Assembly: GCA_021796155.1 (NCBI GenBank)
Contig: JAJYOO010000005.1
Location: 1-24,134, forward strand
Source: Chloroflexota bacterium
GTDB lineage: Bacteria; Chloroflexota; Anaerolineae; Anaerolineales; Villigracilaceae
Direction: 5' to 3'
Length of the DNA stretch: 24,134 bases
Positions within the stretch are counted from its first letter, which is position 1. Every line of letters begins with the position of its first letter. Positions 9,184 through 24,134 of this stretch are shown here, piece after piece. The translations under genes were made by a program, and so were the position numbers. A model generated the notes under the pieces. That model saw nothing but the letters and a program-made list of their open reading frames with translations. It had not been told where the DNA came from and made no database searches.

Positions 9184-11322
9184 ATGTCTAATATGGAACA
9201 TAAACATGATCAACATATGGCTGATGAAATGCAGTTGCATAAAATGAATCATGATATGCACAGTGAACACATGGGCCACGACATGGCTGAACATTCCATG
9301 CAGGATATGAACATGGATCACAAAATAGATGGCGGTCACGCTCATCATGCGGATCATACAGGCCATGAGCGGATGTTCCGCGCTCGCTTCTGGGGAAGCC
9401 TGTTATTGAGCATCCCCGTTCTTGTTTTCAGCCCCACGATTCAGAGTTGGTTAGGATTCAACATCCCTTCATTTATTGGCAGTAACTGGATTCCATTTCT
9501 CTTCGCCCTGATTGTTTTCATCTATGGTGGAATCCCGTTTATCAGAATGGCTATTCCTGAAGTCCGCAACCGCGAACCCGGGATGATGACGCTTATTTCA
9601 CTGGCAATTTCAGTGGCATTGGTTTACAGTCTTGCGGCGCAACTCTTCAACATCGGCGAGGGCTTCTTCTGGGAATTGGTCACACTGATTGACATCATGC
9701 TGCTCGGACACTGGTTGGAGATGCGGAGTGTACGTCAGGCATCGGGTGCTTTGAACGAACTTGCCAAACTGATGCCAGATACTGCCGAACTCATCACATC
9801 GGATAGCAACACGAGAACTGTTTCTGTCAGCGCACTTAAATCAAATGATGTTGTTCTGGTTCGACCGGGAGCGAGCGTCCCCGCCGATGGGCAAGTCATC
9901 GAAGGCGAGTCCAGTATCAACGAAGCGATGATCACAGGCGAGTCGAAACCCGTTGACAAGGGAATCGACTCAAAAGTCATTGCGGGAACGATCAACGGAG
10001 ACGGCAGTCTGCGCGTGCGCGTTACGGCGACGGGAGATCAGACGGCGCTGGCGGGCATCATGCGTTTAGTTGAGCAGGCACAAAAGTCGAAATCCAAAAC
10101 GCAATTGCTTGCGGATCGAGCCGCGGGCTGGTTGTTCTATGTCGCGCTGGGAGTCGCCGCACTTACGGCAATTGCATGGATCATCGCGGTGGGTTTCAAT
10201 ATTGACGTTTTGAAACGCGTGGTGACGGTGCTGGTGATCGCCTGCCCACACGCGCTTGGCCTGGCTGTGCCTTTGGTCGTCGCTATCACCACATCGCTCG
10301 GCGCTCGCAATGGAATCCTGGTTCGCAATCGTCTGGCGTTGGAAGCTGCGCGCAGCATTGATGTGGTCGTGTTCGATAAAACGGGCACGTTGACGGAAGG
10401 CAAATTTGGTGTAGTTGGAATTTGGACTGCGGATGGATGGTATGAAAACCGCGCGTTGGCTCTGGCCGCCGCGATTGAAGGCGACTCTGAACATTTGATT
10501 GCGCGAGCCATCCGCACCGCGTCGGACGAACGAAAAGTTGAATTGCCATCTATAAGTAGTTTCTTGGCGATAAAAGGACGCGGCGCTCAAGCCGACTTTG
10601 AAGGAAAATCCGTTTACGTGGGCGGACCTCGTCTGTTGGAGTCTCTCGAAATTTCTCCTTCACCAACAATCGCAAGTTTTGCTGATGATGCTGGACGAAA
10701 AGCCCAATCGGTCGTTTTCCTGATCGTCGAGAAACAAGTCATCGCGGCTTTTGCTGTTGCAGATGTGATCCGCCCTGAAAGCAAACAAACAGTTGAGCGA
10801 CTCCATGCAATGGGTGTGGAAGTCGCCATGTTGACGGGCGACAGCCGTCCTGTGGCTGAAGCCGTCGCGTCTGAGTTGGGCATTGACCACGTCTTCGCGG
10901 AAGTCTTGCCTGAGCACAAAGATCAAAAGGTGGCAGAGCTACAATCGCAGGGAAAGCGCGTGGCGATGGTCGGAGACGGAGTCAACGATGCTCCAGCGTT
11001 GACGCGTGCGGATGTCGGCATCGCCATCGGCGGTGGCACGGACGTTGCGATTGAATCGGCGGGTTTGATTTTGGTGAAAAGCAATCCATTGGATGTGGTC
11101 AAGACCATTGCATTGAGCCGCGTCAGTTATCGAAAGATGATTCAAAACCTGTGGTGGGCAGCGGGCTATAACATCGTGGCTTTGCCATTAGCAGCGGGTG
11201 TGTTGGCGCCATGGAACATTTTGCTCTCGCCCGCGGTCGGCGCGCTATTGATGTCGCTCAGCACGATCATCGTCGCCATCAATGCCCAGTTGCTGCGTCA
11301 AGCAAAACTCGTGACTGAATAA
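9184..11322 (+). CDS. copB: CopB-type copper-translocating P-type ATPase (P1B-3)
   Basis: A 712-residue heavy-metal pump that uses ATP to move copper (or silver) out of the cytoplasm. The first 62 residues carry a dense His/Met tail rather than a CxxC domain, as in CopB proteins. About eight transmembrane helices follow. The ion-binding helix carries C-P-H (354-356, '[13 protein letters not shown]'), the mark of the P1B-3 class, in place of C-P-C of CopA. Catalytic parts: 'TGES' (251-254), the phosphorylated Asp in '[12 protein letters not shown]' (D398), 'MLTGDS', and the hinge '[16 protein letters not shown]'. GAAAGGAG lies upstream of the ATG. Together with the YHS gene and zinc-ribbon genes it forms a metal-resistance neighbourhood before the copper-electron-transfer cluster. 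Confidence 0.94.
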
Positions 11323-11379: not shown

Positions 11380-11506
11380 ATGTCATCCGCCAGCATTACG
11401 TTCGTCATAAGCCATTTCGCCTATGAGGAATGTGGCTATCCTGCCCTGCAAATAAACCTGTGCATCCAATATAGTTGCTCCTGAATGGATTATAGGAGAA
11501 TTATTG

Positions 11507-12031
11507 ATGATGAAAAAATGGATTTTGATTAGCGTCGGTGTCCTGTTTTTTCTTGGCGCATGTGGTTTTATCGGTCAACCGATCATATCGTCAAACGCGC
11601 CCATGAATAATGGGTATAGCACCCAACGACAGGGCGGCGGCTCCGCATCAAACGGACAGCAAATCTATTTCACTGCAACTGACCAAAACGGCCAGTATAT
11701 TTCCTACACAGGCGGACCCTACTTCGGCGGAATGATGATGGGAAGTTATCTTACCTGCGCTTCCTGTCACGGCAGCGATGCACACGGCGGCACGCACTAC
11801 ATCCACATGCAGGCGATTGACACACCAGCCATCAATTATGCTGCACTGATCGAGATGAAAAAGCAAGACTCTGGCGGCAATCCTACCGATTATTCGCTCG
11901 ACGATTTTCGCGGAGCTGTGGTCGATGGGCACGATACTGCTGGAAATCAACTGGATCAAAACATGCCGCATTGGCAGATGAGCGACCAAGATTTGCAAGC
12001 CCTGCTCGATTATCTCAAGACCCTGCATTAG
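11507..12031 (+). CDS. Lipoprotein c-type cytochrome
   Basis: A 174-residue monoheme cytochrome c. The N-terminus is a lipoprotein signal ending LGAC, so the mature protein would be anchored at Cys19 on the outer face of the membrane. Heme attachment is CASCH (C84, C87, H88) and the likely Met axial ligand is in 'NMPHW' (M153). The C-terminus 'MSDQDLQALLDYLKTL' is typical of class I cytochromes. Between signal and heme is a Gly/Ser-rich spacer. AGGAG (11494-11498) sits eight bases before the ATG at 11507; a TTG three bases earlier is a less likely start. It opens the six-gene redox cluster. Confidence 0.88.
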   Translation: MMKKWILISVGVLFFLGACGFIGQPIISSNAPMNNGYSTQRQGGGSASNGQQIYFTATDQNGQYISYTGGPYFGGMMMGSYLTCASCHGSDAHGGTHYIHMQAIDTPAINYAALIEMKKQDSGGNPTDYSLDDFRGAVVDGHDTAGNQLDQNMPHWQMSDQDLQALLDYLKTLH

Positions 12032-12071
12032 TTACCATAACAACATTCAATCTTCGAACGTGGGCATCAAC

Positions 12072-12491
12072 ATGATATATCGTAAATTCATTTTTCCAGC
12101 CTTGGTCGTGGTTCTGGTTGCCGCGTCGCTTTCGGCTTGTTCGAGCAACAGTGCAGGCGATATGCCCATGGCATCGCTCGACCAAATGCCTGCGGTTGTT
12201 CAATCCGCGCCAGTGACGGTGCAACAAGCTTATCAATTCGCGGTCGCCAATCCTGATGTGATGAAAGGCATTCCCTGTTATTGCGGCTGCGGAAGCATCG
12301 GTCACACGTCGAACTACTCTTGCTATGTCAACAGCGACGGTTCGTTCGATAACCATGCTCTCGGTTGTTCGCTCTGCGTGGACATTACGCAGGATGCGAT
12401 GCGATTATCAAAAGAAGGCAGGACCGCGCCACAAATCAAAACCTACGTGGACGCGACATATTCCAAATACGGCCCATCGAATATGCCTTAA
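12072..12491 (+). CDS. PCYCGC-motif lipoprotein
   Basis: A 139-residue secreted lipoprotein with signal peptide and lipobox 'LSAC'. The mature part has the family hallmark 'GIPCYCGCGSIGHTSNYSCY' and a second pair 'GCSLCVD', six cysteines in all, followed by 'EGRTAPQIKTYVDATYSKYG'. PCYCGC proteins (Pfam family of that name) have no settled function; the Cys array suggests copper or another thiophilic metal. Its place between a cytochrome c and a CuA protein suggests a metal chaperone or redox role on the outer face of the membrane. The ATG at 12072 was preferred over an in-frame GTG at 12060, since the signal peptide then begins MIYRKF; no strong ribosome-binding site was found. Confidence 0.82.
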   Translation: MIYRKFIFPALVVVLVAASLSACSSNSAGDMPMASLDQMPAVVQSAPVTVQQAYQFAVANPDVMKGIPCYCGCGSIGHTSNYSCYVNSDGSFDNHALGCSLCVDITQDAMRLSKEGRTAPQIKTYVDATYSKYGPSNMP

Positions 12492-12495
12492 TTCC

Positions 12496-12939
12496 ATGAG
12501 ACCTCGCGTTTTGCTTCTCTTGATGATCATGACTGGACTGGCCGTGGCATTCGCGCCACTGCCCGCTTCATCCATTCCGCCTCAAACGCGGACCTTTCAG
12601 GTTGACGCGCGTCAATTTGCCTATTCTCCATCCGAGCTTGCCGTCAATCCAGGTGATACCGTGACTATTCAACTTGTCAGCACGGATGTGGTTCACGGAC
12701 TCTACATCGACGGCTACGATATTTCCGTTGAAGCTGATCCAGGTCAAACTGCGACATTGACTTTTGTCGCCAATAAACCGGGTTCCTTCCACTTTCGATG
12801 CAATGTGACCTGCGGTGCAATGCATCCATTCATGATTGGCAAATTGACCGTGGGTGAAAACGATTGGCTTTATCGTTCGATCGGACTGTCCGCGTTGGCT
12901 TTGGCTGGTGTGGTCGTTTTGGCAAAACAAAAAGATTGA
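12496..12939 (+). CDS. Stand-alone CuA-domain cupredoxin (COX2/NosZ type)
   Basis: A 147-residue exported protein: N-terminal signal or anchor helix (about 4-25), cupredoxin domain, C-terminal helix (about 128-143) and a short Lys tail. All CuA ligands are present: H67 ('VVHGLY'), C102, C106, H110 and M113 ('CNVTCGAMHPFM'). Their spacing (35, 4, 4 and 3 residues) is identical to that of cytochrome oxidase subunit II, so a binuclear CuA site is very likely. Unlike true COX2 it lacks the N-terminal two-helix hairpin, and no COX1 is adjacent. It starts four bases after the PCYCGC gene and ends six bases before the polyferredoxin gene. A role in passing electrons between polyferredoxin and a cytochrome is inferred. 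Confidence 0.88.
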   Translation: MRPRVLLLLMIMTGLAVAFAPLPASSIPPQTRTFQVDARQFAYSPSELAVNPGDTVTIQLVSTDVVHGLYIDGYDISVEADPGQTATLTFVANKPGSFHFRCNVTCGAMHPFMIGKLTVGENDWLYRSIGLSALALAGVVVLAKQKD

Positions 12940-12945
12940 TCGATC

Positions 12946-14430
12946 ATGGCAGGCATCGAACTTACTCGCAGTCTGCTCATAAAGAACACACTCAAAAACC
13001 GTTATCCGCAACTGGCCGTGTTTATCGTCATGTTGGTTGGTTTTCTTTTTGCCATTGTAGCAGGGCTGATCGGTACGCCAGTTGGCAGTCATAATTTCAG
13101 TATTGTGTTCATTTGGATCGCGTGGTGGGCGATTCTGATTCTCGTCGCAGTTCCATTCTTTGGACGCGGATGGTGTTCAATTTGCCCAATCCCACTTCCG
13201 GGGGAATGGCTTCAGCGCGGCGCGATTCTGAATCCACCGAACAAAAAACCAAAATGGCTTCATCTGCGCTGGCCCAAATTCCTTCGCAACATTTGGTTGC
13301 AAAATATTTCGTTTCTTCTGCTTGCGTTGTTCAGCAGTGTTTTGCTAACTACACCAAATATCACCGGGATCGTTTTAGCCGTGATGTTATTCACCGCCAT
13401 TGGATTGAGCATGATTTTCGAGCGCCGATCCTTCTGTCGTTATCTCTGCCCCGTTGGAGGATTCATCGGACTCTATTCGCAAACCGCGCCGATTGAATTG
13501 CGAATCAAAGATAAACAACTTTGCATAACCTGTGATGGCAAACCTTGTTACAACGGCGCTTCGACTGATCTCTATACAAGTGAGAAGAACGCTCACTTTA
13601 CTCGACCCGCGCCGCTCAGTGCGAATTCGGGTTATGGCTGTCCGTGGGATGTCTTTCCTGGTGGGCTGACCAAGAACACGTATTGCGGGCTTTGCATGGA
13701 ATGTCTTCGCACCTGCCCGAACGACAACATTGCAATCAATCTTCGTCCGTTCTCTGCCGATCTTGCCAAACCGTCTGCGCGGCTCGACGAAGCATTCAAG
13801 GCTTTTATCATGCTTGGCTCGGCGATGATCTACGCGGCTGTCCTGCTCGGTCCGTGGGGAACGCTCAAAGATGCGGCTTACGACGTTGACACAGGTTCGT
13901 GGTTTATATACGCAGCAGTTTTTCTTGGAATCATTTTCATCATCATGCCGTCCGTTTTTGCGCTTTGCGTCCCTTCGCCTTCACTCACCATTCGTCCGCA
14001 GGATGGCTGTGCTGATGCCGCGAACAGCGATGGCACTTCGGTGCGAGACGGCAGGGCGAGTTTGCATTTTGAAAATTTCAGTTCATTCAAAAAGCGATTC
14101 ACAACTTTATCCACTTCTCTCATTCCGCTCGGCTTGATGTTTTGGGTCGCGTTCAGTCTGTCGTTTGTATTCACCAACGCAACCTATATCTTGGTTTCGT
14201 TGTCTGATCCGCTTGGTCTCGGATGGAATCTTTTCGGCACGGCAAACGTCGCGTGGCAACCTTTGTTTTCATCCATGCTCGCGTCCACACAAACGCTGGT
14301 ACTCGCCGGAGGATTGATCTGGGCCGCGCGCACCGCACAGAAAGCCGCGCGTGAGGCAATGACATCTCCGATTCCCGTCATCGTCTATTGCTTGATTGCA
14401 ACATTCATCATGTTATGGTTATTGCTATGA
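12946..14430 (+). CDS. NapH/NosR-like membrane polyferredoxin
   Basis: A 494-residue membrane iron-sulfur protein. The N-terminal half has four or five helices with two C-x(2-3)-C-P motifs at their ends, 'CSICP' (C77, C80) and 'CRYLCP' (C164, C168), as in NapH, NosR and CcoG. A first Cys set follows ('CITCDGKPC', C193, C196, C201, with C232 nearby), then a typical 4Fe-4S motif 'CGLCMECLRTCP' (C247, C250, C253, C257). The C-terminal half adds about five more helices, longer than NapH (about 290 residues). The family takes electrons from quinol or ferredoxin to periplasmic partners. The last codon and stop overlap the next start (ATGA, 14427-14430), so the two products are made together. Confidence 0.85.
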   Translation: MAGIELTRSLLIKNTLKNRYPQLAVFIVMLVGFLFAIVAGLIGTPVGSHNFSIVFIWIAWWAILILVAVPFFGRGWCSICPIPLPGEWLQRGAILNPPNKKPKWLHLRWPKFLRNIWLQNISFLLLALFSSVLLTTPNITGIVLAVMLFTAIGLSMIFERRSFCRYLCPVGGFIGLYSQTAPIELRIKDKQLCITCDGKPCYNGASTDLYTSEKNAHFTRPAPLSANSGYGCPWDVFPGGLTKNTYCGLCMECLRTCPNDNIAINLRPFSADLAKPSARLDEAFKAFIMLGSAMIYAAVLLGPWGTLKDAAYDVDTGSWFIYAAVFLGIIFIIMPSVFALCVPSPSLTIRPQDGCADAANSDGTSVRDGRASLHFENFSSFKKRFTTLSTSLIPLGLMFWVAFSLSFVFTNATYILVSLSDPLGLGWNLFGTANVAWQPLFSSMLASTQTLVLAGGLIWAARTAQKAAREAMTSPIPVIVYCLIATFIMLWLLL

Positions 14431-15380
14431 AACGCTCGGAACTCCTCGCACGCATTTTGATAACGGTGACCATTATCGGGGCGGTCGGAACACCGCTATA
14501 TTTTTGGACGCGCACACCGCTCATCCACGCGCGCGTGGCGGAGAACGGCGGATGGAGGCCGAATGTCATTCAGGCAAAAGTCAATGAGCCGCTGCATTTG
14601 AGTCTCACATCCGATGATGTCACACATGAATTTGCGGTTGGACAAATGGACATGCCAAGCGTGGACGTGATGCCTGGCAAAGTGACCAACGTGACGCTGA
14701 CATTTGCCAAGCCTGGGACGTATACGTTCTATTGCACGCGTTGGTGTGGAGTGAATCATTGGCGGATGCGCGGCACGATTGAAGTCAGCGGTTCATCTTT
14801 GGACCTTGAGCCTGCTGCCATTCCATTGTACGTTTCCCTCGGACTCGACATTGACGTTCCGCACAACACGACGGTTATCCCAAGCGATAAGCCATCCGCG
14901 ATCCGCGGCGAAGGACTCGCACCCATTTTATCAATCTCTCAATTTATCAATCCCGATTTCTATCGCGCCAATTCGCCGTACCAATTGTTTGAAAATTTGA
15001 ATTCGACTGGCTTGAATGATTCCGAAAAATGGGATGTGGTCAGTTACATCTGGCAAGTGAACACCACGCCCGAATCATTATCGGATGGACAAAGACTTTT
15101 CGCACAAAATTGCTCAGCCTGTCATGGCGAGAACGGCGCGGGCGATGGAGTCTTTGCCAATAAATTATCGGTAAGCATCAATATCAACTCGATGATACAA
15201 AAGCCTGCCAACCTTACCGATCCCAAGCGGATGCTTGGCGCAAGTCCTGCATTGTTGCAGGGCAAAATCCTGCGCGGCGGGATGGGGACGGGGATGCCAT
15301 CCTGGGGGCCGATCTTTACCGAAGACCAAATCTGGGATTTGGTCGCATATGTTTATTCATTTCAGTTCCAATACCACTAA
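14427..15380 (+). CDS. CuA-domain and cytochrome c fusion protein
   Basis: A 317-residue membrane-anchored protein. After one N-terminal helix (about 8-27) there is a cupredoxin domain with a CuA site: H67 ('VTHEFA'), C103, C107, H111, M114 ('CTRWCGVNHWRM'). The C-terminal domain is cytochrome c with heme motif CSACH (229-233) and probable Met ligand M290 ('TGMPSW'). The CuA-cytochrome order recalls caa3-type COX2, but there is a single anchor helix instead of a hairpin. Between the two domains, residues about 160-212 look like a cytochrome fold that has lost CxxCH ('LNDSEKWDVVSYIWQ' is a typical last helix). Starts by ATGA overlap with the polyferredoxin. Confidence 0.88.
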   Translation: MKRSELLARILITVTIIGAVGTPLYFWTRTPLIHARVAENGGWRPNVIQAKVNEPLHLSLTSDDVTHEFAVGQMDMPSVDVMPGKVTNVTLTFAKPGTYTFYCTRWCGVNHWRMRGTIEVSGSSLDLEPAAIPLYVSLGLDIDVPHNTTVIPSDKPSAIRGEGLAPILSISQFINPDFYRANSPYQLFENLNSTGLNDSEKWDVVSYIWQVNTTPESLSDGQRLFAQNCSACHGENGAGDGVFANKLSVSININSMIQKPANLTDPKRMLGASPALLQGKILRGGMGTGMPSWGPIFTEDQIWDLVAYVYSFQFQYH

Positions 15381-15395
15381 CAAGGAGAATCAACT

Positions 15396-15860
15396 ATGAG
15401 CAAAAAGCATCGAAGACAAAAGAAAAGTTTTCCCTGGCCGTTGATCGTGTTCGGCGGGATTCTTTTGATCGCAGCCGCGTTCTTCTTCGCCAATCAAAAC
15501 GGCAGTGCCAGTGATGACGGAGGTACAGCGAAAATCGCCGTTGACCAATCCAAGATTGATTATGGCTATGTCAAGTTTGGCAACAACGAACAATTCTCGC
15601 TCAAGGTCACCAACACAGGCGACGGCACATTACGTTTCAAGGAAAAGCCCTACACCGAAGTTCTGGAAGGCTGCTGACCGCCCGAACTGTCCATCGGTTC
15701 GATGGCTCTCAAACCGGGAGAAAGCACCACCATTGATTCAAGCATCTTCATGATGCATCCCGGCATGGACGGTCCGCATGATTATGCCGTGCACCTGAAA
15801 ACCAATGATCCCCAAAATCCCGATTGGGTTGTGCATGTCCTGTCCAATTGGGGGCCATAA
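15396..15860 (+). CDS. DUF1573 protein, candidate selenoprotein (in-frame UGA at codon 94)
   Basis: Read through the UGA at 15675-15677 this is a 154-residue membrane-anchored protein: basic N-terminus, one transmembrane helix (about 14-32), then a DUF1573 Ig-like domain ('IDYGYVKFGNNEQFSLKVTNTGDGTLRF'). The UGA falls in '..VLEGC-UGA-PPELSIGSM', where relatives, as I recall them, carry GCCPP, so it takes the place of the second Cys. After it the same frame continues with unmistakable family sequence ('LKPGESTTI', 'MMHPGMDGPHDYAVHLKTND', 'VLSNWGP') to a TAA at 15858-15860. A SECIS-like hairpin follows the UGA. The alternatives are a nonsense mutation or a sequencing error. GGAG precedes the ATG, 15 bases after the CuA-cytochrome gene, so it closes the redox operon. 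DUF1573 is often near cytochromes and copper proteins; its Cys pair may handle metal or thiol chemistry. Confidence 0.75.
15681..15718 (+). promoter_or_regulatory. Candidate bacterial SECIS element
   Basis: Starting three bases after the UGA: a lower stem CCCG (15681-15684) with CGGG (15715-15718), an internal loop, and an upper perfect 5-bp stem CCATC (15691-15695) with GATGG (15701-15705). The apical loop is GGTTC. The loop begins 18 bases after the UGA and has G in its first two positions, both features of SelB-recognised bacterial SECIS hairpins. Confidence 0.55.
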
Positions 15861-23522: not shown

Positions 23523-24134
23523 TCAGACTTTTTGAATTTTCACTTTCGTATCATAGAAGCTTGCGCTCCCGCCAATGGGATCTGTAAGACAGGTTGTCTT
23601 CGTTCCCTCATCGAGCAGCAACACAGGGTTGGAGCATGAGCCAACCGCGCGGCGCGGGTCACCTCGAACGATCTGACTATCAATCGTTACATCGCGCGCA
23701 CCATATGCCCAGTGGCCGTACGACCACGAGACCATGATTACGCCGGGACGGACTGTCTCGGTGAGTTTCACCTTGCCCTGAACCGGTTCACGCTGGCCGT
23801 TGCCAAGATCGAGAATCCCATCCGGGTTGGTGCGCGAGAAGAGCTGAACTGTATCGCCATCGTGGATGCTGAGCCGCATCGCGTCGCTTGGATTCATCTT
23901 CACGTAGTTGGTCGGGACAATGCCCATGCCGCCCTGCGTCCAGTAATTGCTGATCGTACGCGACTGTCCGCCTGTGACTTCCTTGTAGGTAATAAGATGG
24001 AACGGCATGTCTTTGTCGTCCACGAGTGTACCAGTGCTATTGTGAATCGGCTCGAAATGTGCTGTGCCAGAGAAGAACGTACCGGTGATGCTGTCCTTGC
24101 CGGTCGCCACGGGTTCGACGAACAGGTTCATCTG
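23523..24134 (-). CDS. Molybdopterin oxidoreductase, C-terminal part (5' end outside window)
   Basis: The last 204 or so residues of a large DMSO-reductase-superfamily catalytic subunit; the frame is open to the window edge. It contains most of the molybdopterin dinucleotide-binding domain: 'PFHLITYKEVTGGQSRTISNYW', 'TNYVKMNPSDAMRLSIHDGDTVQLFS', 'GKVKLTETVRPGVIMVSWSYGHWAYG' and the end 'DPIGGSASFYDTKVKIQKV'. The C-terminal 'GGS..FYDT.V.' pattern is one I associate with the tetrathionate/arsenate/selenate reductase-like group (TtrA, ArrA, SrdA), but active-site residues are missing from the window, so substrate and direction are open; formate dehydrogenase is not excluded. tatA, moa genes and an oxyanion-sensor unit follow on the same strand. 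Confidence 0.85.
   Translation of the reverse strand, partial: QMNLFVEPVATGKDSITGTFFSGTAHFEPIHNSTGTLVDDKDMPFHLITYKEVTGGQSRTISNYWTQGGMGIVPTNYVKMNPSDAMRLSIHDGDTVQLFSRTNPDGILDLGNGQREPVQGKVKLTETVRPGVIMVSWSYGHWAYGARDVTIDSQIVRGDPRRAVGSCSNPVLLLDEGTKTTCLTDPIGGSASFYDTKVKIQKV

Follow-up and report, generated by a model that had tools for sequence, protein, structure and literature searches.

A widespread putative selenoprotein subfamily with a GCUPP motif, often encoded beside CuA-type proteins in Chloroflexota

The gene at positions 15396..15860 of the window, the whole 24,134-nt stretch of Chloroflexota DNA analysed here, very probably encodes a true selenoprotein of 154 residues in which an in-frame UGA (15675..15677) is read as selenocysteine (Sec) at residue 94; we put the probability of this reading at about 95%. 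This gene, the features mapped within it and the genes described at 11504-15380 lie on the + strand. The UGA, a hairpin downstream of it and the frame beyond are conserved in dozens of genomes that carry Sec machinery. In the proposed mechanism, a ribosome would reach the UGA at codon 94, SelB and Sec-tRNA bound to the mRNA hairpin at 15691-15705 would insert selenocysteine, and translation would continue for 60 residues to a TAA. Selenium insertion in the window's own organism is what these sequences predict.

An in-frame UGA conserved across genomes

The frame opens with an ATG at 15396, immediately preceded by AAGGAG, and closes with a TAA at 15858-15860. A first, sequence-only reading of this DNA had described the frame as broken by UGA alone and running on for 60 residues, and we indeed found TGA at 15675-15677 to be the sole in-frame stop, with 60 codons between it and the TAA. 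On read-through, the context of residue 94 is EGC-U-PPEL, so that Cys93 adjoins Sec94.

A protein search matched 938 proteins, the best 120 of which were listed. The column alignment held 121 rows: the window read-through (P0001, with Cys at the UGA column by construction), a truncated prediction (P0066) and 119 other listed relatives. P0066, itself among the best 120 of the 938 matches, is the window's own ORF cut short at 93 residues. Cys occupies the UGA column in 119 of the 119 full-length relatives listed (best 120 of 938), in the context GCC(P/Q), which agrees with the earlier proposal that UGA replaces the second Cys of a GCCPP motif. The protein database thus shows the subfamily only as a Cys form (best 120 of 938) or as a 93-residue ORF. 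Gene finders shorten the gene, and in databases of predicted proteins the Sec members of such families largely go unseen.

We therefore turned to nucleotide data. A tblastn search against genome contigs returned three loci, each with TGA at the same codon; both the TGA and the hairpin of the window recur in the two closest genome loci, which are 70% and 72% identical. Among 396 genomes of the first relative's class, 80 had matches: 64 with an internal-TGA copy, 5 with only Cys-type copies and 11 with only weak matches. The subfamily is thus present in about one in six of the sampled class genomes (64/396), 57 of these 64 having been read base by base and 7 assigned on the automatic TGA flag alone. 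Including the window, 74 copies were read base by base, with TGA in 67, TGC in 4 and TGT in 3; the 67 UGA copies come from 58 relative genomes and the window. The check for TGC or TGT in close relatives that had been proposed at the outset therefore came out in favour of UGA, both in the two nearest loci and in 67 of the 74 copies.

These counts exclude two duplicates (L012 of L002, L014 of L001), the SelB loci L004-L011 and two tblastn matches, second pieces in L044 and L033, that stop short of the column. Eighteen class-search places with internal TGA (17 with one, 1 with two), a Cys-type place (G225:C3) and short or weak places without TGA also lie outside the column reading. All UGA copies except the frameshifted L044 keep the frame open past the UGA for 58-66 residues, up to a stop; L044 was left out of the tree and the protein set. 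This second copy in G216 is frameshifted just after the hairpin, and as the same genome holds an unbroken copy, L017, it seems to be a duplicate in decay or an error of assembly.

Two further draws were judged by the TGA flag, not by base reading (new loci L102-L133). A Cys-type query against 251 genomes of the order gave matches in 56, with 64 places listed, 63 with one TGA and 1 without. Among 400 genomes of the phylum, at least 20 had matches, a lower bound because at most nine candidates were scored per genome; 26 of the 27 places listed had one TGA by the automatic flag, and the remaining one covers the trailing part of the second, frameshifted copy of G216.

The single contig behind the window and the Cys of the 119 listed full-length relatives (best 120 of 938) would both fit a Cys-type gene that has recently gained a nonsense mutation or whose UGA is a sequencing error. 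We consider this extremely improbable, as 67 of the 74 copies, drawn from many assemblies, share this UGA and the hairpin is held by compensatory changes and frozen codons (see below). A pseudogene, too, was ruled out by the conserved UGA, hairpin covariation, codon freezing and conservation of downstream residues.

Another possibility is that the UGA acts as a stop, wholly or under selenium scarcity, and that the 93-residue product is the one used. Gene callers do predict that product (P0066), and decoding of UGA as Sec is rarely complete. Against this, the post-UGA residues rank with the most conserved, G108, M124 and H128 being invariant in an alignment of 94 rows and in one of 192, and the frame end keeps its place across the UGA copies. 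Since these residues and the frame end are conserved, it is the full product that is under selection, and we regard exclusive or conditional use of the short one as very unlikely.

Decoding of the UGA as Trp or Cys by a changed code found no support. TGA terminates 11 of the 26 window ORFs taken as genes, so the genetic code is unchanged, as the sequence-only reading had argued from other genes that stop at UGA. Among the 66 unbroken UGA copies of the selenoprotein gene itself, 15 likewise end in TGA, and Cys is the sole alternative residue at the column. A reassigned codon is accordingly the least credible of these alternatives, its probability being close to nil.

The machinery for Sec decoding is widespread in the class. 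All 3 genomes tried for SelB scored over its curated cut-off, and SelA was over its cut-off in 315 of the 396 class genomes; the SelA match reached E 1e-90 or better in 56 of the 64 UGA genomes, although that in G206 (4.5e-100, one of three matches) may be a SelA-like paralogue. tRNA-Sec and SelD were surveyed in 70 genomes (the 64 UGA genomes, G003 and the 5 Cys-only genomes). The tRNA-Sec model scored over its cut-off (47 bits) in 64 of the 70, and 60 reached at least 61 bits, 56 of these among the 64 UGA genomes; weak matches near 47 bits mean little, because 5 of 14 control genomes also pass. SelD was over cut-off in 63 of the 70, in most with one TGA of its own. Altogether, 63 of the 64 UGA class genomes have a strong match to SelA, SelD or tRNA-Sec. 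The exception, G339, has no strong match to any of the three, its tRNA-Sec barely passing at 47.2 bits. Being common in the class, the machinery is necessary for the selenoprotein reading and weak evidence for it. Two Cys-only genomes (G290 and G328) are without SelA and SelD, and a third (G225) has no SelA match and has tRNA-Sec and a SelD without TGA. In G248 and G254, also Cys-only, SelA, SelD and tRNA-Sec are all present, so loss of the machinery does not account for the Cys form.

We placed 66 Sec and 126 Cys sequences on a tree of 192 rows, with the trait column masked in all but 11. The tree needs at least 9 Sec/Cys changes, 4 of them forced by well-supported branches; it was built by a quick method that leaves 82 of 189 inner branches open. 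Its share of Cys is biased because 119 of the Cys rows are predicted proteins, which miss UGA forms. The alternation of Sec and Cys on the tree, together with the 7 Cys copies read in DNA, which have no hairpin at this place, offers a natural experiment on selenium at a putative copper site.

A SECIS-like hairpin downstream of the UGA

A hairpin of the form CCAUC-GGUUC-GAUGG lies at 15691..15705, with its loop starting at 15696, 18 nt after the UGA. PMC13188914 gives limits for bacterial SECIS elements of a 3-9 nt loop, a 4-16 bp stem, a G in the first two loop positions, a distance of 16-37 nt after the UGA and a minimum free energy (MFE) of at most -7.5 kcal/mol. Loop, stem, G position and spacing of the window hairpin all fall within these limits, and its GGUUC loop confirms the earlier description of a loop opening with GG at the right distance.

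The hairpin is found in 67 of 67 UGA copies, starting 18-22 nt beyond the UGA; at least one of the first two bases of its loop is a G, its stem has 5-8 pairs (GU counted), and all 67 fall within the SECIS geometry limits; L069, which has a 3-base insert, was kept in the hairpin and codon counts and left out of the hairpin alignment A1. At the same place it is found in none of the 7 Cys copies, none of which forms more than one pair there. Three Cys copies form stems of 5-6 pairs elsewhere in the stretch, so a free hairpin search alone separates the two groups incompletely. In 200 runs of synonymous resampling, a stem of at least five pairs was formed by a mean of 10.2 of the 67 copies and at most by 19.

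The aligned stem of 66 UGA copies comprises six pairs and 396 cells, of which 99.0% pair, compared with 88.0% in shuffles. Three pairs switch type across the 66 copies (GC36/AU25/GU1, UA39/CG24/UG3 and GC39/AU25/GU2). Cells changed on both sides number 74, against 30.3 in shuffles, and the covariation score is 0.476, against 0.252, with 0 of 500 shuffles as high in either measure; the shuffles take no account of kinship, and few events may underlie the covariation. Two of the five covariation measures were no higher than in shuffles, namely pairs with double changes (3 vs 2.9) and further pair types (7 vs 7.0). Stems slid along the alignment scored lower, the best of them (+3) pairing in 69.4% of cells with a covariation score of 0.289. 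Codon choice is frozen at the same place: given the same residue, the same codon is used with a frequency of 0.97-1.00 at codons 5-9 after the UGA, where 0.21-0.34 is expected. The frequency is raised less, up to 0.63, at codons 1-3, 11, 15 and 16, and is near expectation at codons 4, 10 and 12-14.

With the stem imposed, the UGA plus 48 nt reaches -7.5 kcal/mol or lower in every one of the 67 copies. Unconstrained folding places the conserved stem in the best fold of 60 of the 67, the window being among the other 7. Folded alone, the window RNA favours an overlapping hairpin by 3.3 kcal/mol (-15.4 vs -12.1); its fold energy is no better than that of shuffles (z -0.87), and the 24-nt hairpin piece alone reaches -6.7 kcal/mol, short of the -7.5 limit. 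We give this unfavourable free fold little weight, since none of the loop and inner stem bases that are invariant across the family has changed in the window. The hairpin belongs to no known RNA family, as Rfam gave no match at E <= 1 in 15600-15800. The case for a putative SECIS element is one of comparison, and a single sequence would not prove the hairpin.

Relation to known selenoprotein families

With 32.8 bits, the window protein scores over the gathering cut-off (25.5) of Pfam PF22544 (HYDIN/VesB-like Ig); it has no match at E <= 1e-3 to PF07610 (DUF1573, gathering cut-off 26.1). Several relatives pass PF07610, namely L040 (33.1 bits), P0099 (31.3), P0087 (28.0) and P0093 (27.7), while L001 stays under the cut-off at 18.4. 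The DUF1573 label first given to this protein therefore does not hold for the window member itself, though it does for some of its relatives. The window protein passes none of the NCBIfam models and has no match to NF041425, the OS_HP2 (seleno)protein (curated cut-off 100), which 4 of 8 relatives tried match weakly (best 27.9 bits).

Residues 45-154 (15528..15857) form an ASH/PapD-like Ig domain according to the Pfam profile, the AlphaFold2 prediction and fold matches; the best fold matches of the predicted structure are ASH/PapD-like Ig domains with varied roles. A match to particulate methane monooxygenase B (E 0.27) was not significant, and we rejected that protein as a relative. One N-terminal helix, at residues 15-32 (15438..15491), is predicted in the AlphaFold2 secondary structure with low confidence (pLDDT 55-62). 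We take it as a membrane anchor; it would insert in the membrane, and the Ig-like domain would lie outside.

PMC9312934 and PMC13188914 already list DUF1573 as a selenoprotein with the motif UGC and the PCYCGC family as one with the motif UxxC, and Table 1 of PMC13188914 lists adjacent Cys-Sec (CU) for several metal-related families. The earlier suggestion of a new setting for selenium chemistry was thus overstated; the Sec-Cys setting found here is a new variant, not unprecedented chemistry. Neither GCU nor PF22544 has an entry in Table 1 of PMC13188914, which according to its text covers 119 families. A literature search brought up no earlier report of the family by title or abstract start; most subscription journals were outside its scope, so an earlier report is possible.

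The published DUF1573 UGC selenoprotein and NF041425 OS_HP2 are probably one family. It shares with our protein the same class of Ig-like domain and differs in having U-G-C where the window has G-C-U-P-P, a separation made by published motif, not by alignment. The PCYCGC/CYCXC family (OS_HP4; NF041379, PF13798) is found in the same operon and likewise has Cys and Sec forms, also within the clade, but is a different protein family; its window member is a Cys form that scores 76.4 bits against the NF041379 cut-off of 90. The CopZ-family 2Fe-2S form 2, MerB-like SaoL, HgcA and MbdU share a metal-linked adjacent Cys-Sec, as listed in Table 1 of PMC13188914, but have other domains, judged by the accessions there and not by sequence comparison. 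From their sequences, the GCUPP proteins are a new and widespread subfamily of predicted selenoproteins, near but outside DUF1573 "UGC" and OS_HP2.

Operon setting and possible function

Upstream of the selenoprotein gene, the window encodes a c-type cytochrome 5' of the operon (11504..12031, profile match), a PCYCGC-family protein of the Cys form (PF13798; 12060..12491, profile match), a cupredoxin (12496..12939; start inferred, ORF opens at 12325), a NapH-like polytopic 4Fe-4S membrane protein (Fer4_5; 12946..14430, with a match to NCBIfam napH_ below cut-off) and a CuA-type cupredoxin fused to cytochrome c (14427..15380; start inferred, ORF opens at 14388). Both cupredoxins have the CuA ligand pattern CxxxCxxxHxxM.

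Among 22 loci with wide flanks, 14 have the full gene set and 8 do not (the distant Sec loci L089, L090, L092-L094 and L096-L098). Nine (L001, L002, L082-L088) show the window order of PCYCGC, cupredoxin, NapH-like protein, CuA-cytochrome c and selenoprotein; L095 has this order at greater distance, and in L091 and the three Cys-form loci, L099-L101, the set is complete but the gene for the present protein stands between those for the cupredoxin and the NapH-like protein. The set of two CuA-type cupredoxins, NapH-like protein and PCYCGC protein is thus kept in the window (11504-15860) and in 14 loci. In a count of neighbours at 71 loci, where most flanks were 1.5-2 kb and the two cupredoxin types cross-match, at least one of the four operon families lay beside the gene in 54 (a raw count with no random-locus baseline) and none in 17; when a CopA-like match was allowed, these numbers became 61 and 10. 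A scan of selected neighbours identified two PCYCGC proteins, one cytochrome c, one HMA-domain protein and a COX2, the rest being ordinary or unknown.

The PCYCGC neighbour is a UGA form at the UxxC place in 3 of the 26 loci with a PCYCGC match (L032, L039 and L040), and an ATCACG..CGTGAT hairpin can be seen by eye after the TGA of these three genes. With this TGA and hairpin, it seems that certain operons carry two selenoprotein genes.

Of 18 genomes tried, 17 encode haem-copper oxidase subunit I and 5 have a NosZ match over cut-off. We rejected a direct terminal-oxidase link, as subunit I lies near the gene only in G002. None was seen within the window's operon. The operon is also not simply a nos operon, because its CuA domains match NosZ models only over the CuA part and NosZ occurs in 5 of 18 genomes. 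The hosts are thus mostly organisms with haem-copper oxidases (17 of 18 tried), in which the protein is probably extracytoplasmic and often encoded beside CuA-type proteins.

Across the 192 rows, Cys93, Met124 and His128 are invariant and column 94 holds only Sec or Cys, while Met120 (191/192) and His121 (188/192) are nearly so. The last four residues of the candidate site form a conserved MH-x-x-M-x-x-x-H motif at 15753..15779. This pattern suggests that Cys93/Sec94, Met120, His121, Met124 and His128 are metal ligands, which may form a soft-metal, probably Cu(I), site. Such a site could help to load the copper of the neighbouring CuA proteins or to keep it reduced. PCuAC and Sco are extracytoplasmic copper chaperones that work on CuA; PCuAC uses Met/His ligands, as would the candidate site here, and neither protein was among the matches listed. 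From the conserved residues and the CuA-type, NapH-like and PCYCGC neighbours, a role of any kind in copper or CuA maturation would be the most likely function, at a little under even odds.

The protein could instead be a thiol/selenol-disulfide redox partner that carries no metal and, for example, reduces the cysteines of CuA or of the PCYCGC protein in the manner of Sco or TlpA. Its Cys-Sec pair is vicinal, its CuA-type and PCYCGC neighbours have cysteine pairs, and most uncharacterised selenoproteins are thought to have redox functions, according to PMC13188914. Invariant Met124 and His128 and near-invariant Met120 and His121 would be unusual in a pure thiol oxidoreductase, and the fold resembles an Ig domain and not thioredoxin. 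As a selenosulfide, moreover, a vicinal Cys-Sec pair is strained. We regard such a redox role as a serious possibility that falls short of probable. Within the copper reading, a specific version is held more tentatively still: the protein may be a selenolate Cu(I) chaperone outside the membrane that loads the two neighbouring CuA-type proteins in a CuA/NapH-like/cytochrome c electron-transfer system of Chloroflexota. As many as two extracytoplasmic proteins of that system, the selenoprotein and the PCYCGC protein, could then use Sec.

Elsewhere in the window, the C-terminal part of a putative molybdopterin oxidoreductase, read from its translation, runs off the edge at 23523-24134; the residue at its active site (Cys or Sec) lies beyond the window, and nearby genes were read from their translations as MoaA/MoaE. 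A copper-type P1B ATPase is encoded 5' of the operon at 9184-11322, with CPH in place of CPC and a His/Met-rich N-terminus.
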